From: Endomicrobium sp. | Lineage (GTDB): Bacteria > Elusimicrobiota > Endomicrobiia > Endomicrobiales > Endomicrobiaceae | NCBI GenBank assembly: GCA_031262585.1 | Contig: JAISHK010000009.1 | Span: 62,001 to 126,000, forward strand | Length of the DNA: 64,000 nt | Direction: 5' to 3' | In this document: piece after piece, positions 15,556 to 60,734 of the stretch | Position numbering within the stretch: position 1 is the first letter of the stretch | Layout: each line of letters opens with the position of its first letter | Made by a program: the position numbers and the translations under genes | The notes under the pieces: generated by a model | Database searches by the model: none | What the model was told of the DNA's origin: nothing | The model's input: the letters and a program-made list of their open reading frames with translations, nothing else

Positions 15556-16812
15556 AAAACCAATAAAACAATTAACTCATCAAACCATCAAAAACTTAAT
15601 CTTCTCTATTTGGAGACAACGGTGGTGATTCTACAAAAAAATACTATTCTTGTCAATTTATGAAACACAATTTTCACTCTATCTTTTAAACATTATTCAA
15701 TCATGTTTAAAATCTTTTTCTTACTTAATTAAAGTGCAATAATAGTTTTAATATAATATCAAAATCATTCCTTCAATTATAACTACATAAATATAGCATA
15801 TTAAATTCTGCTAAATTTTTAAAATTTTACAAAATTGAATACATTAATAATATAACAAATACTTCATTTATCTATTTTTTATTTTTAAATTTACAAATTA
15901 TTTTGAATTTATCAAGAGATATAACCAATATTTAATGATATTAAACTGTAATATTTAAAAAATATGTTAATAAAGAAGTATTTTCATGTGAAAAACAATG
16001 AAATAAAAAACCAAAAACTCAAGCTATTTCAACAAAAAGTGGTCAACTGTTTGCAATTACTCGTTATGATTTTAATGATAAAAATCGTATTTTGAAATAG
16101 CATGTCAAATAAAGGATGCGAAATTTGCCAATATACTATTTTTTGTGATAACAAAGGAAAAGAAGTACAAATAAAAATTACCGCAGTACCGTGATATGAG
16201 ATACACAGCGAAACATTGCGTTCTTACGCAAAAAGTTTCAACTAAAACATAAAACGTTTTATCGAATTTACAATGCAAAAGAAATGATTGATCAATACTC
16301 TAAACAATATCCACAGATAATTTTACAGCGATACCTAAAATTATCAAATCATAATATTTTCGTAAACTTGATTTACATAGAACTACAAAATATTATTAGA
16401 GTTGATCCAAGAGAAGAAGTCGCTCATTTAAATTTTATAATCTTAAAACAATATACAGAATATTTAATAGTCATGGTTACAACAGTTGTTGGTATTATGT
16501 TAATAAAAATTTTAATCATAAAAGTTTGGAGTCCAAAACACAAAAATACTGAGAGACAATTTAAATACACAAAATTAATTACACCAAACCAAACTATAAG
16601 ATATATAAAAGACTTAACGAATGGTCATAATTTAATTATACATAAACTGAAGCAAACAATATATCTAAAACTAACCATCATAGAATATTTGGTTAAAATT
16701 TTTAGTATATTTAAATTGACTTTTACAATTTTCACTAAAATATTCATTAATTACAATATATCGTTTACAAAATTAAATCACGTAACTTGTAATAACAGTT
16801 ATTTATTTATCA
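15556..16812. other. Gene-free decayed region between tRNA-Tyr and the xerD pseudogene
   Basis: No intact gene was accepted. A 179-codon plus-strand frame (16284-16823) is open, but past about residue 60 it is hydrophobic low-complexity AT-rich sequence, so I do not call it as a working gene. Its first part seems to continue the broken plus-strand coding traces listed separately at 15990-16500. Confidence 0.5.
15990..16500 (+). pseudogene. Unidentified decayed plus-strand gene
   Basis: Coding-like pieces follow one another in shifting frames on the plus strand: AISTKSGQLFAITRYDF, then GKEVQIKITAVP, a stop and YEIHSETLRSYAKSFN, then FYRIYNAKEMIDQYSKQYP leading into the open frame at 16284. 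The polarity and amino-acid composition look like a real protein broken by frameshifts and stops. I do not recognise the family. Confidence 0.4.
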
Positions 16813-17500
16813 TCAACATCTAGAACAAAATGTTTCATGTTATTGTATTATTTTATTTTTGTCAACATAAGTATAAATCTGCGTAGTTATAGTTGAAATG
16901 TAACTCACTATTTCTCTAACAAATCTAATACCTACTCCAGCAGATATATAGCAAACTTTCTTTTAAAAATATAAAAAGTAATAAATTTTTTTGACTTTTT
17001 CCCAAAAAATAAGTCTTTTTAGAACCTTTTCCAATAATTCTGAAAAACAATTATGCAAATTTATAATCTCTGAAATTCTATGACCAGTAGCGTATAACAC
17101 AAACCCTATTCCCTTATATTTACTTCACTGTCAGCAGTAATAGAATTTAATAAGAGTGCAATTTCTTCAAAAATAAGTATATTAGGTAAACTTTCAGGCA
17201 TTTTAAGAGAAACTAAATAAATAGTTGGTTATTTTTTATTAATTCTTTATTACTTTAAAATTTATAAAATTATCTTATAGATTCCATAAGTCCGTAAATC
17301 AATCCAGTTTTAATCCTCTTGCTTTTACATTAAACAAAAATCAGTTACATCATTATGCTTAAAATCATAAAAAGAAAACTGTTTCTCCTTAACCATATAT
17401 TATAAACTTTAAAATACTAATCCTATAATCTAAAACAATATTTTTAGATAAATCTTTTTCAGCATATTAATTATGCTAATTAAATCTTCAATTTAAAAAA
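16813..17500 (-). pseudogene. xerD: Decayed XerC/XerD-type tyrosine recombinase
   Basis: Minus-strand islands match the whole length of XerD in order. N-terminal AEKDLSKNIVLDYRISILKF is at about 17403-17463. Then come KHNDVTDF, LKMPESLPNILIFEEIALLL (near 17200), LYATGHRISEIINL (near 17080) and IIGKGSKKTYF. The C-terminus GVGIRFVREIVSYIST, TTQIYTYVDKNKIIQ, a stop and HETFCSRC resembles the GADLRxVQExLGH, TTQIYTHVD and HxxFHPRA of the family. Stops, frameshifts and loss of the HxLRH segment rule out function, although the catalytic-Tyr segment IYTYV remains. The enzyme normally resolves chromosome dimers at dif. Confidence 0.83.
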
Positions 17501-33565: not shown

Positions 33566-33589
33566 ATTTTCTTTCCCATGATTACTTGA

Positions 33590-33747
33590 GAATCATAAAA
33601 AAAATATTTTTTAAAATCTTTCAAAAACAAACCAGTATATCTCTTTCACGACTAAAACATTTTTCTCATCACTTTCTGCAGAAGCATGCTCTACAGGACG
33701 AAAATCAGTAACTCAATCGTAAGCACCTTCACGAAAAAATATTTCAT
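33590..33747 (-). pseudogene. nrdR: Remnant of the RNR repressor gene nrdR
   Basis: Directly upstream of nrdJ the minus strand reads MKYFF, then in the next frame REGAYD, a stop, VTDFRPVEHASA, then in a third frame RKMF, a stop, S, a stop and KRYTG. NrdR starts MKCPFCGAYDxKVxDSRPVExGxxIRRRRECxxCGKRFTTFE, so GAYD, VTD-RPVE and KRYT fall in register. The zinc-ligand cysteines are lost and the ATP-cone domain is absent. The alignment is by eye. NrdR normally represses ribonucleotide reductase genes. Confidence 0.6.
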
Positions 33748-34491
33748 TAATTTCTCTTTTTTTTATCAAAAACACAATACGATACAAAACAAACCTGCTG
33801 TACCAAATTAATGCTACAATAATACATGTAGATTTGTCAAGGTAATAATATAGCATTATTATCATATAACATAATTTAAGATTTTCCATCTCTTTTAGCC
33901 TTACATAAAGCTTTGTCAACTTTACTAAACTTCCATGCCTACCTAAAAACATAAAAACTACTGCTACAACACTTTGCTCGTTGCAGTTTCTAGTTTAGTT
34001 TCTGCAAAAAACGTCTTAAATAACCGAGAAGACTATCTCTTTTTAACCTATCATCATTTCCTCAAAAAGATTTATTCTTTTAATAACTAAAAAAATTTGT
34101 AAATTAAGAATAGACTCTTTTGCAAAACAGTCATCAGAACCATTTTTTTAATAGTCATTACAATACATTCTAAAAGTTAATTCTCTATTTTTTAATGACA
34201 AATAAATAATACTTATTTTATTAATGTTAAACTCACTATAATTTATAACATTATACTTTCATCTCGATTTAAAAATTTTAACGAATGTCATATTGAAATA
34301 AACCTCTATCGTACAAAACACTCGCTTTGTATAAATTTTATCACATTTCTATAAATTCTTATGCAAAAATACTAATTTTCTCATCAAGAAACACAATCCT
34401 ACGCTTACAATTACATTTATTTGCAAAGAAAATAAACTTTTTATAAACAAGAACAATTCCTCAGTGTATTCGTAAATTTTACAAAACTTCT

Positions 34492-34750
34492 TCACTTCTT
34501 GATAAGAGGATAAACTCTACTACTCTTTGAGTGTTTAACTCCTCTTTGATCTTTCATTAAAATAAAGATACATATAAATTCTATTAATTCACCAGTAATT
34601 ACAAGCTTTTGGAACTGTTAACCCAATGAGAAAACTGCTATAAAAAAATCATTACTTTTATGACTTCGTAATAGAAATTTATTATCTTTAAAAATATTCT
34701 CAATCTTAAAGTAAAAAATACACTTTTCATATAAAAAGTTAAAATATTAT
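34492..34750 (-). pseudogene. Unidentified broken ORF
   Basis: One frame runs for about 82 codons with a single internal stop: FNFLYEKCIFYFKIENIF, NKFLLRSHKSNDFFIAVFSL, then a stop, QFQKLVITGELIEFICIFIL and MKDQRGVKHSKSSRVYPLIK. Composition is protein-like rather than random. I do not recognise the family. No ribosome-binding site was looked for beyond the visible start. Confidence 0.32.
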
Positions 34751-35733
34751 TTCTTTAATATTTTAGACTATTTTAAAACTTTTTCCTTATTAAAATATCA
34801 CAATTCTTCAAAAATCTATGCTTTATAGAAATATATTTTACTCTTTATATCTCAAGAATTAAACACATACAAATTATAAACAAAATCTCTATCAATATTA
34901 CCTATATCTTAGATTTTTTCATAAAAATATAATGTTCAAAATATATAATGATAATAACATAAATTAATAGCACACTACGAATATAAATAATAAAACACTA
35001 TTATAAAAATTTAAAATAAGATAAAAACTGACTATTGGATAAAATAATAAGTTTACAATCCAAAACAGCTAAAAAACTTATGTAAGAACAGGAATTAACA
35101 GAATTAAAACTACATATAAAGTATCTTTATCTATTTTTCCTTTTAATATATCAAAATCAAAATAACAACAATTACAATCCATCCATTTCAAATAAAAAAA
35201 ATACTTACTAGAAATATAGTTTGCAACTATTTTTTCAGCTCATTTTTCAATTTCCAACTAATAAACTTAAATTCTTTTATCCAAATATCATCTTTTTTGC
35301 AGACCCATGAAACCCATAATCTACATCACTAAAAACTATAAACAAAAAAGCTTTTATTTACGATTCTCTAATTACTAAAGTTTTGTCGATTTTAATTTAG
35401 TAATATTTGTTTTCGATAATGCCTTAGATTTAGATAAAGAAACAACAACATTGTCTAAATTATTTTTTAAGATAAAAAATGTCTATATCTTTTTCTTTTA
35501 CTCTTATAAACATAAAATACAATACCATTATTTTTCAAAATTATATTTAAATTTGAATATAATCTTTAAAATTATGTTAGATATTCCCCGTCTGACACAG
35601 AAATGTTTATAGTTTTTGAATCATCATAAACAAAAAAAACAAAACTCTATAAAAATAACTAGTGTTAATGTTAAGGCCCCAATGTAATAAGACAGATTAG
35701 TTATTTTATTTTCCCAATTCAGCAATAGTTATT

Positions 35734-36110
35734 TTATATTTTGATATTTTTTTCTAAAAAATCTGCATAATGTAAAAAATTGCTGCCATATTTAAACAAA
35801 ATCTTTAAACCTGAAAGCAAATACCTTGGATTAATTTTTTCGCCTTTAAGTATGTATTAATATAATTTTGAGAATTTTTAATTTTCCGACAAAACTTTAA
35901 GCAATTTTAACGACATCTGAAGAAAATGTTTGAATAATATATTTTAAAATTGATTCTTTATCCTCAACTTTTTATTTTCTGTTAACATGAAATTATTTCT
36001 CCACACTCTAGACAAAATACAAAACTAATTTCGTCTACTATTAAAATTTCCTTAAATTCTGAATTATCTAAATACTTATTGCCAAAAACAAACTTGCTTT
36101 AAATAGATGT
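35734..36110 (-). pseudogene. Unidentified decayed gene with a well-preserved C-terminus
   Basis: The 3' end is a clean frame ending GEKINPRYLLSGLKILFKYG then SNFLHYADFLEKNIKI and a stop at 35734-35736. Upstream frames give YLDNSEFKEILIVDEISFVF and CLECGEII, then ESILKYIIQTFSSDVVKIA, separated by frameshifts. The polarity is consistent over 370 bases. I could not assign the family. Confidence 0.38.
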
Positions 36111-36819
36111 TGTTTAATATCATTATTACACTATTATTTTGTCAAATTATACAAAAATTTAATATTATAAAATTAAAGATATATGTTACGTTTTACTATT
36201 TTCTTCAACAAATCATTCCAAACAAAAAGCAATATGAAAAAGCTTCTAAAATAAGGCATTTTAGCGGTTTTTTCATATTTAATATCCTTATCTTTTTCTT
36301 ATACTACCAAATATTGAATAATCTCCAATTTTTCCATTTCCTCAAATACCTTCCATTTCTTGTGATACAAATAAACACAACAAAAGAATTTTGATTCAAC
36401 ATGCCACATTTATACAACTCTCGCAAATTTAAATATACTTTTTTTCTGCTAGTTATATTTATACATCAAAACTTTGACTCAAGTATTTCAAAATAAAATT
36501 TTCAAACTTTAACATAAAAAATAGGATAACCACCCTTTTATATAATAATATTATCCGATATTTTCTTCATACCTATACATTTCAATAAATTTAACTTCGA
36601 TTTCATTTATATTCTAATTTTCTATATCTATTTTATTATATGTACATATCATATTAAATCTATAAATTATATATTACACTGTTTTTTTACACTTTAATAA
36701 TTTTTAATACTGTAACTATAATTTTTTTACCATTATCTGTTTGAAACATTCCTATTCCAAATACTTGAACACTTGGAATTTTCTACAAGCTAACAAAGGC
36801 CTATAAATTTATAAAAAGG

Positions 36820-36846
36820 AAGGCTTATGGATGCATTGAAAGCCTT
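36820..36846 (-). terminator. Possible terminator hairpin inside the eroded region
   Basis: Seven-base arms AAGGCTT and AAGCCTT surround a loop containing ATGCAT. On the minus strand the stem is followed by CCTTTTTAT. It may mark the 3' end of one of the decayed minus-strand genes. The evidence is weak. Confidence 0.25.
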
Positions 36847-39080
36847 ACCGTAACTCAATTTAAATGATTTTAGTTTTTATTGTAACAGCAACATATATCA
36901 AAGTCTCAATTATTTAAAAACATTAATTTTGAGTCTTTAACACATAATATACAACATTTATGTTATATTTATTTTTTATAAGATTTTCAACTTTTTTTGG
37001 CATGTTCTCAAGAATAAAGATTTTATAATGCTTTGAAATCTTATAGCTACACAATTGTTATTATTAGTTTTTGGAGATATAATTTTACCTGTACAGATAG
37101 TATTCAGAAAAAGTGTCAAATTCACTCCCATTATAACAAACAATCTGAATCAATAATTTTTGATACTCTTGTCATTTTTGATATAACAAAGAACTTCTGA
37201 TAAATCTAATATAAAAATTTTATACTTTTTCAACTCTTTCACAATCAATAAGAATTTTATTGAATTAGTTATTATATCTGTCAATCACTTTATCTAAAGT
37301 TACGTACTAGACAAATACTTCTTTATTTGAATTTTTTATCACCTATTCTAATAATAATTAGTACATTCTTCTAAATTTAATAAATTAAAATGAATTTGTA
37401 CTTGTTCTACAATCTTTTGTTATGGCTTTATTCTGTAAATTAATAATTTTATTACCAAATACTATTCAATTCAATATTTTTTTAAATTATTATAATTGCT
37501 TTTAACTGGTCCCAAAAATCATATTTTTAGAAGAGAATATTTCTTAAAAACAATTTCAACACTTCTTCACATATCCAACAACATCATCGTTTATTTTAAA
37601 ATCAACAGTTTCTAAAGCATAGTAATTATTATTCATTTCCTCTTCAATGTACTTTATACACAGTACTTAATAATAAAATCGCAAAAAACAAAGTTTAATC
37701 TGTTAATTACTACCCTCTTTATGCTAATATTATATTTATAAAACACTTTTTTAATCATGACTTACTTTATTGAACTTTTTACAATTGCAAATCTTAATTT
37801 TAATGGCTCATAAATCTATACTTTTAAGTTTATATATACCTCCTCTATCAAATGTTTAAATGAAACAATGCATTACGGAATGATGCCGTTACAAGTATAA
37901 ATTACCATTCAAAGTTTCTTAATCTTCATTTCTAGCCACAAAAACATTTTCTCATGATGATTGAAAATAATCTTTATTATCAATTATGAATAGAAAATAT
38001 ATTGAAGACGAACCGATTTAATACCTTTATTATAGAAATTATGCAATATAAATATTTCCTCTAAGATCAGCAGAAATTGGTTCAAATATAAATACAACAC
38101 ATAAAATATAATGTACATTCATCTTTTATCAAAGACAATACAGTTTTATAGTCCCATTATATTCATTTTATTTATGCCAATATAAATAAAGACTCCTATT
38201 TTTACTTTTATATTTTCTACAGTTATAACAAAATGATTATTATAAATAAGATTTTTAATCAAGTTTTTAGTATACACGGATATGTATAATTTATGAAGCG
38301 AGTTGACACCGTACAAAAACAATAGTTTTGAAAGATCTTTTTATTTCATTGTAAAATTTTTACATATTTTTTATCGGGAAACAACTTGTACATACTTTAG
38401 GTAGACTTATTTTTATTATAGACAACATAAACATTTCATACAATATATCTCAAAATCCTGACTTTATGAAAATTTTTTTTTCATAAATTTTTGAAAAAAT
38501 AATGCTGACTATTCAAAATTATTTCATTACATATTCGCTATATATCGTTGTAATAAAGATATCAAAAAATCAACTTTAAAACATTCACTCAATAATTTTG
38601 AACTGCACTTATCTATGTACTTTTAGATACATAACATCAAAAAGACATGAAGTATAAAGATTTAAAGTATCCTGTAAAGAATGTAGTATGAAATAACCAC
38701 CAACCATCATAAATAAAACAATTTCTATTCTTTTTATTTGAAAGTTGAATTTCAATATTCTATTAACACAGAACCGAAGCCTAAAGATTTTCAAAATTTG
38801 ATATTTAGGAAATTTTTATTTATACTTATAAATATTTAAAATCATGTAACAAAACCGACGATTTTAATCTTGTTATACTTAGAAAGACTATCGCAAATTT
38901 TAATCAACGTGTTGTTATCAACAACCATTAATTGAAAAGACAAAAAATCTTTCTAACGAAATAAACTAAATTCTAAATAAAATTCTTTAATGTTTTTATA
39001 ATAATAAACCGATCACTATTTATTTTTAAACTAATTACATTTATACCTTTGATATGCTAATGTTTAGAAACTAATTTTAA

Positions 39081-39536
39081 TTACTTAAAAGAAATAAGCA
39101 AAGGAACCTCGCCACAATCTGGGAACAAATAACAATTAATGCACTCATTCCATATCTTGTGGGGAAGCGTTTCTTTGGGGATTATAACATAACCAAGTTT
39201 TTTAAAAAAATCGGGTTTGAAACTTAATACAAAAATTTTATTTATCCCTAAGAATTTCGCATTGTCTTGAAGTTTTGTAACTATTTTTTTCCCAATTCCT
39301 TGTTTGCTAAACTCTTCTATTATAGCTAAAGCTTTGATTTCCGCCAAGTCCTCCCATGAAACATGCAACGCTCCACATCCTATTATTTTATTGTCATTCT
39401 CAGCTACGATAAATTCTTGAACATTCTCATATATTGCACTTAAAGATCTATGAAGCATTTCTCTATTATTGGCATAATGTTCAACAAGACTGTGTATTTC
39501 TTTTACATCTTTAACCTTTGCCGGTCTTATATTCAT
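39081..39536 (-). CDS. GNAT N-acetyltransferase, N-acetylglutamate synthase type
   Basis: A 151-residue single-domain acetyltransferase. NIRPAKVKDVKEIHSLVEHY and REMLHRSLSAIYENVQEFIV, IIGCGALHVSWEDLAEIKAL, the acetyl-CoA loop EFSKQGIGKKIV (QxxGxG/A), and PDFFKKLGYVIIPKETLPHK then IWNECINCYLFPDCGEVPL follow the short N-acetylglutamate synthase subfamily found in arginine biosynthesis. argC, also in this window, fits that role. It is isolated between an eroded region and the hrcA promoter. Confidence 0.78.
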   Translation of the reverse strand: MNIRPAKVKDVKEIHSLVEHYANNREMLHRSLSAIYENVQEFIVAENDNKIIGCGALHVSWEDLAEIKALAIIEEFSKQGIGKKIVTKLQDNAKFLGINKIFVLSFKPDFFKKLGYVIIPKETLPHKIWNECINCYLFPDCGEVPLLISFK

Positions 39537-49946: not shown

Positions 49947-52900
49947 CTTTTTATCTCCACAATCATAGTTAACTAATATCCCCAAAATATTTACCAACAA
50001 ATTCAAAATTCTATTTCCAAAACCCTGTAAACTTGATTTATTTTAATTAAATTCAAAATATTGGACAATCTTAATATGATAATTATCAAGTTTTTGTATT
50101 CAAATTATGAATTATCATTATACCAATTGTGTTCGTATCTTTGCAGCAACACCTGACAACATATTTAGTCTACGTTTAAATTTTATTATAATTTTCTTAC
50201 AAAAAGCTTAACATTAAGTTCTTTAAACTGCAACAACTACCTTTCATTTTCATTAAATTCAACTTTCAACTAGACTTTTTCAATTGTTTCTAAAATATGC
50301 TATTATAAGACAAATTTAAACATCCTTACAGCAAAAAATATCAACAACGAAAACTGTTACTATTTTTATTTAATTCATTTTATAACAAAAAAACGATCAA
50401 CTTTATTAATAAATTTCAAACTTAAATAAACTAAACGTATTCAATTATAGCAAATAAAACACTTTGTCTCTTTTAAATCATAAAAAGTAACTTCATGATA
50501 AATGATATATATAAAATGATCATTTTTTATAATAAAAAATAAATCTTATAAAAAACTATAAAACTCTTTAATTTTATTTTTGTAGTACTTGTTTTTTGAT
50601 TTTTATTGAAAAGTTTAATCTATCAAAAAGTACACTCTTCCTTTTACTTACTTTTATGTATATATTCAATTAACCCTATTATTTCTTACTATTAATCGCC
50701 ATTGTTAAGATTATCTATTGTTAAATAGGTATAAAAATATCCACTCCAAATTCAGATTTTACAAAGTTAGTTAACAATTTCATATCTTATACATTTGTCT
50801 CGCATTTACATTAATTCTTATCTTTGGATCTTTAAATTTTATAACAATATATTTTCTCCTCTAGGGAAAACAACAAATTTATTTGCTTGTCTAATCTTTC
50901 TTAATCAAATCATTTCATTATCGCATTTCTTCTTCGAACAATTCTATAATTATTCTTCCATTTATTTTAATTTAATATCTGCTATATATTTTGCTCGCTT
51001 ATTACATAAAAAAATACAAGAATAAATCTAGTCGCACAAATTTAAATTAATGTTTTGGTCTCCCGAGTAATAACAAGTTGTGAAATAATGCTTCGTGTAG
51101 TTAACTACTTATACTCCAAAAAATTGGATTGATAAATTAAAATTATTATCGTTCCAACTATCTTTCATCAGTAACATAAAAAACTTTATTATTTTCAGTG
51201 TTCTTAATTTTAACATATAAAATTAAAAATTTTTATTTTTCACTAAACAATATAAAAATGATTAAGTATTTCTTTATAATAATCTAAATTTTTAGTATGC
51301 TTTTTTAATATTAATGCTTAATCTTACTAAACAAAATAGTTATTTTAATGTTATGATCTCTCCTTTCACTTTTTTCATTATCTCTTATTTTTAGATACAT
51401 CAAAAATAAAACTTCTATGATACAATTTTAATTTTTTAAAAATAGTTATCTATCCTAACATCTCAAAAATTTTAAAAAACACCATTCTTCCTAAATCTCT
51501 TTTGTAATCATGACTGTTTTTATATATTTTTTTATAAAACAGTCAAAATTATCATCACTAAATCAAATATTCCATATCTGTATTATAAACAAATATAAGT
51601 TATATTAGTTTTTTGTTATTTTATTTGCTTTATATTGTCTTTTATAAATCTACCTTAATTTCTATACAGAATTTTCGAGAAAAATGTAAAGAACATTTAA
51701 TATTGCTTAAAACGAACAGAACAAAAAGTCATTTTAATTTTTCAATTCGTATTTTTTATTAAATATTTAATATCTATCTGATACAATCTCAATATTTCTC
51801 AAAATTAAATATAGATCAGCTAATAAAATTATAAAGCTTAATATAACTTTATATCATTTTTTTATCTTAAATAATTTAAATACTAAAAACAATTTCCATT
51901 TTTTTTAATGATAATTATATTTCTATAATTAATTTTACACAAATATAAAAAAGTTAGTTTCAATGAGTACTTATTCTATAAGTAAATCAAAAAGCTTATT
52001 AAAACTATATATAGACTATTTGTATATAGAAAAACAAATAAATAGACACTCAATTGAATAAGATAAGAATCATATTTAGCGTAGTAACAACCATAAATAT
52101 TACTTACTTTATTTTCGCTTTTTTAATTGAAACACATTAAATGATATTACAACATATATTAAAATAATTCATATAAATTTGCTATCTTTTTATTTCTTCT
52201 ATATTAAGATATCAAATCTGAAGATACTTATTAATCAATTTCTAACTAACATTTTTTTTATTCTTATTCTCTTTTAACAAATGCTTATTTTGCAGATTTT
52301 TAAAGGTTATTATAAAATTGCTATAACTTAATTAAAAAATTTACAAAGAATATGAAATCGGATAATAAACCATTACAATTTTATTAAAATACAAATTAAT
52401 ATGAATCTCAAAAGATTCTGGATTTGTGATTAAAAAAGATAAATTATTTAAATTAAATTTAAAGATAAATGTCACTTAAGTTTTAACAACATAAATTATA
52501 AAAACTAAATAGCATATAAAATCATTAATTTTTGGATAATAGAAATATCAAATAAATTTAGAAAAGAATATTTTCAGATAACAAATCTTAGACATTGTTT
52601 ATAAAATTTTGTAATATGAAATAAAGATTAAATTATTTATAAAAAACCAAAGAAAAAACAATTCTAATTTCTTAATTATTTAAGAATAACAAGAAAATTA
52701 TATAATTTCCCATAATTTAAAATATAGTGAAAAGATAAAATATTTTACTGATAGAAAAATTTTTTGATAAGAATTATCAACTTGTTAATAAAACCAACGA
52801 AGTTTTAATTTGTCAAACAAAGACCTAGTTTAAAAAATGCATATTTCAAGTTTGTCGACGAATAAGAGACTACACATTACAAGATATATAACTTACCAAA

Positions 52901-53794
52901 CTTGAATGGAAGAAATTTATAACAAAAGTTTTCTTAGAATTTTAACCTCTTTTAATTGAAAAATACTTTATACGAGATTATGCACTTAGGACTTATTTCT
53001 CTATCGCGAAAATTTTACACTAAATTAATCATGTTTTTTTGAATTACTAAATATAGAAAAGATGTGTATAGTGTTTTATTTATAGCGATAAGTTAAATAA
53101 TTATTAATGTAAATCCATTCCGCATTTATAAGTAAAGTTTAAACATTTGTTTTAATTTAGATGTTTAGAACGAAATAAACACTGAACAACATTTGCAAAA
53201 TAGGTACAATATAGCGACTGCAGTAAAATAACAGTAACTCGGCATAAAGCAAGTCAAAACATATATTTCAATATTGTAAAAATACAACTTTAACAAAAAA
53301 ATAAAATTTAAATAATATTTTGTTCCAGATTATTTAGAGCAAGTAGAAACTACTAAATATAAATATTGAAAACAGAAAAATCAAATTCTGTTGCTTAATG
53401 TTTAAGTGATAAGAGAAAAACTATTAAGTTTAGAATAATTTAATATTTGTTTTTTTACAACAAATTCAAAAATAACGAACAACTTTTCTTTTGTATGAGT
53501 TGCGCAAAAGATAACATAAAGATACAAATTATTATAAACTAGACTTTTTATAATCTATGATAGCAAAAGTATTTTTGCCAAAAAGAGATGAAATTAAATT
53601 GTTAAGCTCAACATCCAAACTTTATAACTTAAAACCAAAAACATAAAACCAACTTACATAGCATTTTTTAATTTTTAGTTTATAAAAATTAACGAAATCA
53701 CATAAACAAAAATTATTATTAATTTCAAATAGCTTTATTATAATAGCAACTTTAAACAACAGTAAAGAATTTTAATCACCAATAATAACAACAC
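49947..53794. other. 3.8-kb gene-free eroded region between leuS and tRNA-Asp
   Basis: No intact gene. A 76-codon plus-strand frame at 50795-51025 is Phe/Ile/Ser-rich and is antisense to a minus-strand trace YIVIKFKDPKIRINVNARQM (about 50790-50860). A plus-strand trace near 52870-53000 reads CRRIRDYTLQDI, a stop, LTKLEWKKFITKVFLEF, a stop, and IEKYFIRDYALRTYFSIA. None was assigned. The centre (51100-52700) shows no coding character and is almost pure A/T. No tRNA or hairpin was noted until 53795. Confidence 0.5.
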
Positions 53795-53870
53795 CGGGGA
53801 CGACGGGAGTTGAACCCGCGATCTCTGCCTTGACAGGGCAGTGTGTTAAACCAGACTACACTACGTCCCC
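53795..53870 (-). tRNA. tRNA-Asp (GTC)
   Basis: Acceptor GGGGACG/CGTCCCC, anticodon stem CTGCC/GGCAG and loop CTGTCAA give anticodon GTC. The discriminator is G, as expected for Asp. The T-loop TTCAACT is intact. CCA is not encoded. It stands alone between an eroded region and glyA. Confidence 0.96.
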
Positions 53871-54073
53871 AAACAAATAAACGAAGATATTATATTAGAA
53901 AGTTAATTAAAAGTCAACTTTTTACTCTAAATGATAAGAATTTTTTAGAAATATCAAATAAACTAATATTTGTATAAATCTTATAAAATCAACAAGAACC
54001 CCACACTCCATACATAAATCATAAGTTTCTAAAATCACACACGATTTATATATAATGTTTTGTAAAAAAATCA

Positions 54074-55324
54074 CTAATATTTCAATCTTTTATAAATGTT
54101 AAATTTATAACACAAATTCAACATATCTGCTCTAACTTCAGCAATAACTTTTTTATTATCAATATTTTTAAGAACTTTTATTATAGACTCAGCTATTTTT
54201 ATCATTTCTGCTTCCTTCATGCCTCTTGTTGTAACAGCAGGTGTTCCAATTCGTATCCCGGACGTTATCGCAGGTTTTGCTTGATCATAAGGTATTCCAT
54301 TTTTATTTAAAGCTATTCCTGCTCGTTCTAATGTTTCCTGAGCAACTTTTCCACTAATGCCTAAAGGTCTTAAATCTACTAAAAATAAGTGCGAATCTGT
54401 TCCACCGGAAACAATTTTCAAACCACCATTTTCTAAAACTTCAACAAGTTTTTTTGCATTAGCCAAAACTTGTTTTTGATATTTTTTAAATTCAGGTTTT
54501 AATGCTTCATTAAAAGCCACAGCTTTAGCAGCTATAACATGCATTAATGGCCCACCCTGTTCACCAGGAAAAACTGCAGAGTTAATCTTTTTAGCAAGTT
54601 TTTCATTGTTTGTAAGAATTAAACCACCACGAGGACCACGAAGAGTCTTATGTGTCGTTGTTGTTGTAATATCTGCATATTCAATAGGAGATGGATAAAC
54701 TCCGGCAGCGATTAACCCAGCATAATGCGCTATATCAGCCATATGATAAGCTTCAACATTTCTTGCAATTTCTGAAACTTTTTTCCATTCCCATATTCGT
54801 GAATACGCACTAGCACCACTAATAATAAGCTTTGGTTTATTTTCTATAGCGAGTTTTTCCATTTCATCATAGTTTATATAACCTGTTTTTTCATAAACAT
54901 TATAAAATACTATTTTAAACCATTTACCTGAAACATTAAAAGAATTACCGTGCGTTAAATGTCCACCATGTGATAAATTAAGTCCCATAATTGTATCACC
55001 AGAATTTAAAAGGGCAAGTTGAACTGCAAAATTTGCTTGGGACCCAGAGTGAGGTTGTACATTCGCAAATTTAACATTAAAAAGCTTCTTTGCTCTTTCT
55101 ATTGCTAAATTTTCAACTATATCAACAACTTCACATCCTCCGTAATATCTTTTATAAGGATAACCTTCAGCATATTTATTTGTAAGACAAGAACCCTGTG
55201 CTTCCATAATAGCTTGTGAAGTAATATTCTCTGAAGCAATAAGCTCTATCGTTTCTCTTTGTCTTTTGAGTTCTTTAACTAAAACATCATAAACTTTAGA
55301 ATCGTTTTTTCTTACATTTTTCAT
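54074..55324 (-). CDS. glyA: Serine hydroxymethyltransferase
   Basis: A 416-residue PLP enzyme. [51 protein letters not shown] and the PLP-lysine motif [15 protein letters not shown] are present; [14 protein letters not shown] carries the cofactor Asp and His. It interconverts serine and glycine, supplying one-carbon units. The frame opens at 55351, but ATG 55324 has GGAG six bases upstream and better matches the family start. It directly follows tsaC. Confidence 0.96.
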
Positions 55325-57013: not shown

Positions 57014-60000
57014 TTTTTCTCCATATTGCAACAAATTATTATAAAATTACTCTTTTCCTACGCACTTTTATGTGTGCAATTTTAATTTATTTAATAAATA
57101 GCGATACAAAGATTAATTTTTAAAAACCTTGCAGAAAAATGATGAGAATATTTTTAAAATATATAAAAACACGCATGCTTTACTAAAAATCGAATAACAT
57201 TATTATACATAATATTACTTATAAAATACTCAAATTACAAATTAAAATACTATATCAACAATTACATACATGTGCATGAGACATATCAATAATATTTTAA
57301 ACACATAAGACAAAAAATTATCCAAACTTTTTTTATTTATATTTTTAAATATACACCAATTCGGTAAAAATCATATTTCGTTTTACAGTATATACTAATT
57401 AGTACTTATCTTTTAAATGTTCAAGAATTTCTAATATTTGATTTATACATATACTAATGGTATACCCCATCTTACAAAGTTAAATAACAGCTTTTTAAAA
57501 CATTTTTTACATTAACAAAATATTTATTATTTGTTTTACAAATTCAAAGTTAACTGGAGTTAAAATAATTTTATCATACTTGTAAGTTTTCAATTTGAAT
57601 AAAAAATTGTGTTGCTTTTTATATTAGAATTCAAACAAACTGCCCTGATCAACCAGCAATCATTTTATTTAAATCATAACTATAGAAGCTTTGATTACAT
57701 GGCATCATAAAATGTTCCGCTATTCCTAAACCAAATATTGCTTTTGACCATTTAAGAAAAGATATTGATATTAAAATTTTAATATTCTTTCTTGCTATGA
57801 TGTCATCAATACAATACTTTCCATATTTTGCTAAGATAAAAAATTATTTAAAAAAAGATATGGAACAATTTGTTTTTTATATAAATTGAAATATTTCTAT
57901 TCATTTTCAAAATACTATAGTCAATTTGTTTATGACTTTTTTATTTTATCATTTTAACAGAATGTAATTTTGCTTCAAAAATATAATATAATTTCTTAAA
58001 AAATGAATCACCGTTAATTCACTTATACCACAACTCCTACTTTACAAAAAAATAATACTTGTTAACCCATAAAAATATAATTAAAATAAAAAGAATTAAT
58101 GAACACATTTATACAAACTGTTGTAAACAAATACACGCACAAAGAAAAAAATATGTATACTACTTAAATTATGTAATAAGAAAAATTGTTTTTCTAAAAA
58201 ATTTCATAATCTCAACACCTAAAACATAAGATTTTTACTTTCAATAAATAAAAATTGCCTATTCTTATTCTACATATACTCACTAAAAAAATTTCATAAA
58301 CAAGAATTATGGTACAAATAAATCAAGTTTATTGTAAATGTTTTTTTGACATTAAAAACAGGAATTACACCAATTAATACAACAACACAAAGCATTTTAA
58401 TCAAAAAAGCTATTAAAAAACGCAAAAGACAATACTATAACTCTATATCTCTCAAAAGTTCATCCACATAACATCCATAATGTTAAAAACATTTGTTACC
58501 TACCATCTACACAATACTTATAATACACGATTATCCACAATATATTTATATAAAATTCACTAGAGCAACTAAAAATTGAATAAGAATTTTAATTTAAATA
58601 TCCAGTCTCTTAAATTTTATGTCATCAATAAAATTCAAAAATAAGCATCAATAAAATACTATATAAAATTTCTAGCAAATTTCTAAGACTAAACATAGAA
58701 AAGATGTAATTTGTTTGTCAAGAAATAGCAACATTATACATACAATAGTTATGTCTGTTCTACATTATACTATAAATTTGGATGTATAAAACATTTAAAA
58801 TATGTTTTTATGTTTAACAAAGTAACAATAAATCTTTATAAAAAACATTAGCTCTATTATACTGGGAATACGCTTTTTGCTCATCACTCTTGTAAATTGT
58901 GCCATTTTATATTTATTAAGACCTAAAGCGTAATGGTATAACTCTCTATTGAAAAATCAATTAAAACTTCTTGATTAGTTTTATACATAACAAAATAACC
59001 TTTTTTAACATAATTTTGACTTGCTAACAAGTCAAAATAAAGTAAAGTCTTTTCTAATACTGTTGAATAGCATATAAAGTTCCACTACAAAAAAACTATT
59101 AACAAAAATTTAATACATTAAAGATACAGGAATTAATTTTGGTATCTCTTCTTTTAATACTAGAATCTAATGAAAAAGAAATAAAATAACAACATATTTA
59201 TTGATATAAATAGTAATGGATTTAAAAATTATAAAACAAAAATGGTATCATAACAATCAGAATAGATAAATATAAATTCTCTCAATTTTTTAGTCATAAA
59301 TAAAAAATATTATAATAAATACTAATCAAAAATTACATTTTTAACTAAAAAATTGAAATATATTATGGTGTTAAAATATTAAAATTTTCAATAGTTTTAT
59401 AAAAAAGAGAAACAGTATAATAATTATTAAATCCGATTTCAAGTAAGAGAAGATCTTTTATTACAAATTAAACTGTTTTACACATTTATTATTAAAAAAG
59501 AAATTTTTTTTAAAAAAAATAAAAAAAATGTTAGTATCAGTAAAATAAACTGAATAATAACAAAAAAGCTTTTGTTTTTAGTTTTCTTCTTACAAAAAAC
59601 AAATAAACTACTAATACAAGTTCGGATATTCTGTGGCAAGTAATGATTTTATCACAATTATACCAAACAACAGCATAAAAGACATATAAAAATATTTTTT
59701 CTCTTAGTCTGCTAAAAGATAAAGTACAATGCGAGTAACAAAAACATGAAATAGAACGCATAACCTTGTATGTGAGCAACTTAAAACAATATTTTTTAAA
59801 AACTAAATTTATCAAAAAAGAGACATACAGCTAATCAAAACTCTATACAAATAGACACAATAAGAGTACTCTTCTTTTTATTTTAATTAAAACGAAAAAC
59901 CATTTCACACGACAAACATGACACAATGTAAATAAAAAAGCAAAACAACCTCACTTTTTGCGCCATATCAGTAAAATAATACAAACCACAACAATTAAAA

Positions 60001-60083
60001 AATTGTTTTTTACAACAAAAGAATACAATAACTCCATTTTATATCGCTAAAATTTAGCAAACAATTATCATATCGCACTTTTA
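57014..60083. other. 3-kb gene-free eroded region between argC and the prepilin peptidase
   Basis: No intact gene. Coding traces on the minus strand include FGLGIAEHFMMPCNQSFYSY then DLNKMIAG (about 57650-57750) and VKKGYFVMYKTNQEVLIDFS then IESYTITL (about 58930-59020). Both look like broken proteins of unknown family. A 92-codon minus frame at 59537-59815 has a random Cys/Phe/Tyr-rich composition and no ribosome-binding site, so it is not called. Confidence 0.5.
59013..59038. repeat. Perfect 11-bp inverted repeat
   Basis: ATTTTGACTTG, four bases CTAA, CAAGTCAAAAT. Neither side has a T-run, so it is unlikely to be a terminator. It may be a protein-binding palindrome or chance in AT-rich decayed DNA. 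Confidence 0.65.
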
Positions 60084-60734
60084 TTAAAAAAATGTATTCA
60101 ACAGTAATGGGAACTGCGGAAGAAATATTGTTATAAAAGATGCCGTTGATAAAAATGGGCCAAAAGGTATATAATCTTTCCTTTCAATTTTTTTAATTGC
60201 TATTAATATTAAACCTATAATACTACCAAAAACCGCAGCAAGAAAAATTGCAATTAACGCTCTTTCCCAACCTATAAAAGCACCTACTCCTGCCATAAGA
60301 TTAATATCGCCACCACCAATAACTTCTTTTTTATAAATTAATTGTCCTAAAAAACCTATAATAAACAAAGTACTCCCACCTGCAAAAATTCCTAACAAAC
60401 AATTAATATATCTTACTAAATAAACTTCCCCTAAAATTTCATTTAAAAAACTAAATATGAATCCTACTATAATTAATCCGATAGATACTAAAGTAGGAAT
60501 TATTCTATGAAAATAGTCTATTACTGAAACTAAAATTAGAGAATATACAAGTAAAAAGAATAAAAGAAATTGAAAAGAAAAAGAAAACTTATAAAAAAGA
60601 AATTCTAATGATAAAGCAGTAAGACACTTAATAAAAAATGTTTTATAAATAGTATTACCTATTTTAAAACCTATATAAAAAACTAAAATTATTCCCAAAA
60701 TATAAAATGTCATTTTATAAATTAATTTAATCAT
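60084..60734 (-). CDS. Short type IV prepilin peptidase (A24 aspartic protease)
   Basis: A 216-residue polytopic membrane protein. The two catalytic aspartates are in VSVIDYFHRIIPTLVS (about residue 73) and GGGDINLMAGVGAFIGW (about 142), and PFGPFL near the end fits the family. The cytoplasmic zinc/N-methyltransferase loop of PilD (two CxxC pairs, about 60-70 residues) is absent: helix 1 (YILGIILVFYIGFKIGN) leads directly to the KCLTALSLEFLFYKF helix. It would process pilin-like signal peptides without N-methylation. No pilin gene is in this window. An upstream neighbour is coaD. Confidence 0.82.
   Translation of the reverse strand: MIKLIYKMTFYILGIILVFYIGFKIGNTIYKTFFIKCLTALSLEFLFYKFSFSFQFLLFFLLVYSLILVSVIDYFHRIIPTLVSIGLIIVGFIFSFLNEILGEVYLVRYINCLLGIFAGGSTLFIIGFLGQLIYKKEVIGGGDINLMAGVGAFIGWERALIAIFLAAVFGSIIGLILIAIKKIERKDYIPFGPFLSTASFITIFLPQFPLLLNTFF

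Follow-up and report, generated by a model that had tools for sequence, protein, structure and literature searches.

A decayed xerD gene and the probable broader loss of homologous recombination and of chromosome-dimer resolution in a genome of the Endomicrobium lineage

The xerD locus

The window analysed here, a contiguous stretch of 64,000 nucleotides, carries at 16819-17492 on its minus strand a xerD pseudogene that spans positions 13-298 of the 299 positions of the XerD consensus, as delimited by frameshift-tolerant profile alignment, tblastn and the TIGR02225 model. Translation of the minus strand over 17560-16810 yields XerD-like islands in alternating frames, and tblastn with XerD proteins of the same genus matched ordered pieces at 17460-16819 (minus strand, best E 1.8e-19). 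The profile, built from 28 XerD proteins of the genus, scored 168.3 bits over 17492-16819 on the minus strand, against 14.1 bits on the plus strand and a null of 60 dinucleotide shuffles with a mean of 15.6, a standard deviation of 1.8 and a maximum of 20.7; on the same scale functional xerD genes reach 575-614 bits. Within the 217 aligned codons identity to the XerD consensus is 61%, and the damage comprises three in-frame stops, ten frameshifts and deletions of 2, 7, 48 and 2 codons.

The islands, all on the minus strand, can be followed from one end of the protein to the other. The N-terminal island AEKDLSKNIVLDYRISILKF (17393-17468), identified by profile alignment as are those that follow, belongs to the core-binding domain and has a frameshift at either edge, at 17468 and 17394. 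Catalytic Arg-I (R-I, position 153) is retained in the Box I island LYATGHRISEI (17060-17097), and the lysine of the catalytic beta-hairpin (position 180) in the GKGSK island (17018-17034). At the junction of the 48-codon deletion (16954-16956) profile positions 203-250 have gone at 16955, and with them HxLRH, which provides His-II and Arg-II. The C-terminal island (16819-16929) reads IRFVREIVSYISTITTQIYTYVDKNKII, a stop at 16842 and then HETFCSR; here LGH has become SY (His-III to Tyr) and FHPR has become FCSR, while the nucleophilic Tyr is retained. The catalytic set R-K-HxxR-H/W-Y is therefore not found in one open frame.

A sequence-only reading of this DNA had described ordered minus-strand XerD islands broken by stops and frameshifts, which the 168-bit alignment and the tblastn matches bear out, with coordinates right to within about 10 bases; the HxLRH segment that it reported missing was removed by the 48-codon deletion. 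Its terminal motif close to HxxFHPRA does form the C-terminal end, but reads HETFCSR versus HKKFHPRG in relatives. At the level of sequence it is confirmed that 17492-16819 (minus strand) is a pseudogene, the decayed remnant of the one XerD gene that this Endomicrobium-type symbiont had. That the frameshifts are assembly or base-calling errors, a thought invited by the draft state of the assembly, has practically no probability in the face of the many substitutions, the 48-codon deletion, the 61% identity to the consensus and the intact flanking genes (read as ribosomal proteins L1 and L11, NusG, SecE and a PAP2 gene).

The draft assembly that holds the window (G000) comprises 937 kb in 11 contigs, with completeness rated 83.5%. 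The closest named-genome matches of its NusA are Candidatus Endomicrobium/Endomicrobiellum MAGs, many of them from termite guts, at about 65-79% identity (76-79% for the top matches), which by protein sequence places the genome in the Endomicrobium/Endomicrobiellum lineage of the Elusimicrobiota, with kinship to the Endomicrobium symbionts that live in protists of the termite gut; in a TopA tree its position is not firm. Some 66% of the window is coding-like, and ORF-poor stretches lie at 49947-54076 and 57014-60086. Another 5.5 kb (33566-39083) is without a substantial ORF; it was tested for recA since the adjoining gene neighbours recA in two relatives (G007 and G017), nothing rose over background, the real recA slot being on contig C9, and the stretch probably holds further pseudogenes. 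Beside the xerD fossil, 16284-16823 carries a 179-codon ORF with no convincing family match, perhaps a chance ORF or a relic.

Which recombinase was lost

It can be asked whether the fossil derives from a phage or mobile-element integrase, or from a second XerC, instead of the chromosomal XerD. Its motifs are common to all tyrosine recombinases, and the read-through was scored weakly by PF00589 alone. Among the NCBIfam models, however, the read-through fits TIGR02225 XerD best (E 8e-34, compared with 8e-28 for TIGR02224 XerC and 3e-9 for the integron integrase), and the genus XerD profile gives 168 bits versus 35 for the XerC profile. The neighbourhood, moreover, is orthologous to that of the functional xerD of a relative (G029, L078), whose five upstream genes recur in the same order and strand at 27458-23801 of the window, with about 6 kb of other genes between this block and the fossil. 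An integrase or a second XerC is accordingly very improbable, and the XerD identity proposed from the letters held where its phage or transposon alternative failed.

Search for another Xer protein with PF00589 and a XerD alignment revealed no intact XerD elsewhere in the 937-kb draft. The assembly contains only two other tyrosine recombinases: one is a wrecked XerC, encoded on contig C4, and the other, of archaeal appearance, sits on a contig of 3.4 kb. The latter was rejected as a replacement Xer and regarded as contamination; its contig (L071, G000:C11, 3447 bases) also carries an archaeal-type DnaG-like gene next to the XerA-like recombinase, and probably stems from a methanogen. In the comparison set of 35 genomes of the same genus, in which recA, xerC, xerD and dif were counted, 28 carry a XerD-type gene, interrupted by stops in two of them, and 30 carry XerC; among the carriers are assemblies measuring about 0.5-0.7 Mb.

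XerC and dif

The xerC gene of G000, following topA at L070 7526-8644 (G000:C4), is still one open frame. Ten alignment columns have been deleted from its product, among them GKGxKER with the catalytic Lys hairpin; HTLRH has changed to HTLKH, with K for catalytic Arg-II, and LGH to LEH, so that neither the Lys hairpin nor the HxxR of a functional XerC is left. Of 106 invariant columns 28 are changed (26%), compared with 0-5.5% in relatives and 18% in G031; in TopA of the same genome, which served as control, the count is 6 of 166. Judged by these residues xerC is catalytically wrecked, dead or nearly so. Its C-terminal tail shows an apparent partial repeat of a segment ending in HPR.

The predicted dif of the genus, GTCCGATAATATATATTATGTTAAGT, was found by pattern search as one conserved site, with at most three mismatches, in 23 of the 35 genomes. 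The search for dif that the sequence-only reading had proposed gave no match within three mismatches across the 937 kb of G000. Taken alone this absence is weak evidence, because dif likewise went undetected in some relatives whose Xer genes are intact and whose assemblies are fragmented. In several relatives, however, dif is located between a lys1-like gene and asd, and in G000 this pair is intact while its 189-bp spacer (L145 6166-6354) is free of dif; such an intact yet empty slot is, as sequence evidence goes, a stronger indication of dif loss than absence alone. A diverged dif in the spacer was considered and rejected, the best full-length match having 10 mismatches. The spacer does contain an exact 13-nt match to the XerD arm, inverted, of a length reached by 24 of 3000 shuffles, which is only suggestive of a dif remnant. 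The same slot shows a direct duplication of TAATAATATTTAAATTAGTATTGATTT.

One may still suppose that dimer resolution survives, either through an intact XerD that escaped assembly or through the diverged XerC acting alone at a new site in the manner of XerH or XerS. The assembly lacks about 16% of the marker set, XerC remains a long open frame, and the exact XerD-arm match persists in the dif slot. Against this, XerC has lost the hairpin lysine, has K where catalytic Arg-II should be, and is changed at 26% of its invariant sites; dif is gone from its own slot, and the arm match is inverted and was equalled in the shuffles at the frequency given above. Survival of dimer resolution is in our estimate quite unlikely.

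Homologous recombination genes and FtsK

No RecA was detected in G000 even at E<=10, whereas intact recA is present in 29 of the 35 genomes of the genus. In G014 and others recA is flanked by metK on one side and by the transporter and pyrG genes on the other; the corresponding slot of G000 (L145 10185-11030, G000:C9) holds a 34-codon RecA relic of 36.9 bits (300 shuffles: mean 13.7, maximum 22.2), in place of the intact recA on which RecA-dependent homologous recombination depends. RuvB and RecR occur only as pieces with stops. Fossils of ruvA, ruvB, ruvC and recR lie at the conserved loci L267 4932-7108 (G000:C4) and L268 3720-4438 (G000:C7), where the relics in the syntenic slots score 245 bits for ruvB, 216 for recR and 176 for ruvA, with nulls of about 14-16, and a ruvC trace scores 23 bits against a null maximum of 18. 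The neighbours at the examined loci are intact, namely metK, pyrG, purF, carB, dnaX, the por and atp genes, yebC, queA, topA and ftsK. ComEC (L263, G000:C4:1991-2791) is intact as well despite the dead recA, a puzzling combination if the cell takes up DNA for transformation.

FtsK of G000 is encoded by a 715-codon open frame with motor and alpha domains (matches to PF01580 and PF17854), and its winged-helix gamma region aligns closely with relatives, so that the motor and gamma domains of an FtsK translocase are both in place; the Pfam gamma model, which was run on the G000 protein only and not on the relatives, gave no match. Decay of the gamma domain following the loss of XerD was rejected on the strength of that alignment. 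In FtsK the same gamma surface is used for reading KOPS and for activating XerD (PMC5052618). A natural separation of function is conceivable, though it is put forward tentatively: if this reading were true, gamma, conserved though RecA, RuvABC, XerC, XerD and dif are gone, would be selected for KOPS reading and DNA pumping alone, independently of XerD activation.

Order and meaning of the losses

XerCD acting at dif resolves chromosome dimers, which arise when RecA-dependent crossing-over joins sister circles. By sequence the dimer-making genes and the XerCD/dif system are both broken in this one genome, and the loss of xerD is very probably part of a broader breakdown that took both homologous recombination and the resolution of chromosome dimers. 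RecA-dependent crossing-over would have been lost first; sister chromosomes would then have formed no more dimers, selection on XerD, XerC and dif would have lapsed and these parts would have eroded, while FtsK would have been retained for division and DNA pumping. Most likely, then, XerCD/dif became dispensable because recombination had died and dimers had stopped forming. We infer the order of loss solely from the amount that remains of each gene: recombination is placed first because least is left of recA and ruvC, and the xerC frame is still open. It had been suggested from the letters that losing a Xer recombinase matters for segregating circular chromosomes. The loss itself stands, but the segregation problem has to be qualified, since recA, recR and ruvABC are dead too and dimers are probably no longer made.

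Several points weigh on this joint account. The draft is 83.5% complete, which leaves some room for relocated intact copies, and the genome is eroding broadly, so that the losses may reflect general decay and not a causal chain. Along these lines the loss of XerD would be non-specific erosion by drift without a causal tie to the loss of RecA, dimers being tolerated or rare in a slow-growing symbiont. The long ORF-free stretches of the window agree with this, and so do two relatives. G031 (L114, about 0.4 Mb) has a xerD with four in-frame stops and no detectable dif or RecR, its RecA and RuvB being intact, and G017 has RecA and no detectable XerC, XerD, RuvB, RecR or dif. Since G017 keeps RecA without Xer and dif, Xer loss does not always come after RecA loss, and the two genomes warn against a strict rule of RecA first and Xer second. 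On the other hand, at the loci examined in G000 the neighbours are intact and every recombination gene examined is dead, and relatives with smaller assemblies, G028 and G029 for example, retain recA, xerC, xerD and dif together. We regard non-specific drift as rather unlikely, though it deserves to be kept in mind beside the joint collapse of recombination and dimer resolution.

On the latter reading xerD may be needless in G000, where decay or outright loss has also struck the genes that create dimers (recA, recR, ruvABC) and its partners xerC and dif. A survey of 2009 left open how bacteria without dif cope, and all but one of them had kept a recombination enzyme (PMC2731167); G000 shows the recombination genes in decay together with the resolvases and dif, all within a single genome. 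Close relatives with the full set stand alongside, which makes the dependence of Xer on recombination testable phylogenetically.

Comparison with known systems

For the Endomicrobium/Endomicrobiellum symbionts, the lineage to which G000 belongs, recA and competence genes were reported to be conserved and expressed (PMC8809381), and a survey of Endomicrobia found DNA repair and competence functions without notable difference between free-living and symbiotic lineages (PMC11257099). Because these papers report recA as conserved and repair genes as alike across lifestyles, G000 looks like an exception among the Endomicrobia. This bears on the claim of recombination- and transformation-competent Endomicrobium symbionts (PMC8809381), for the G000 lineage has comEC and not recA. 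No paper naming both Endomicrobium and XerD was found in the literature searched.

With the canonical XerCD-dif system (TIGR02225, TIGR02224) the fossil shares an alignment along nearly the whole XerD model, and the relatives in the genus possess xerC, xerD and the 26-bp dif core; G000 differs in having only a xerD pseudogene and a xerC with a ruined catalytic site, and in lacking dif. In SOPE, the symbiont of cereal weevils, dif was lost along with part of the terminus (PMC3914690). This recent symbiont resembles G000 in the loss of dif, but in G000 it was dif itself that eroded, within an intact slot. Loss of dif and Xer is also on record for the insect endosymbionts Buchnera, Blochmannia, Wigglesworthia, Carsonella and Baumannia, and for Ruthia (PMC2731167); Ruthia is the dif-less species without homologs of RecA, RecB or RecF, whereas the other dif-deficient species encode at least one of the three (PMC2731167). 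The likeness to these organisms lies in a reduced, host-associated genome without the dif/Xer system, and the loss in G000 is a fresh instance of a type already known from insect endosymbionts. G000, however, belongs to another phylum, the Elusimicrobiota, and the parts of the machinery are still legible as fossils at their own loci, so that the loss can here be watched in progress.
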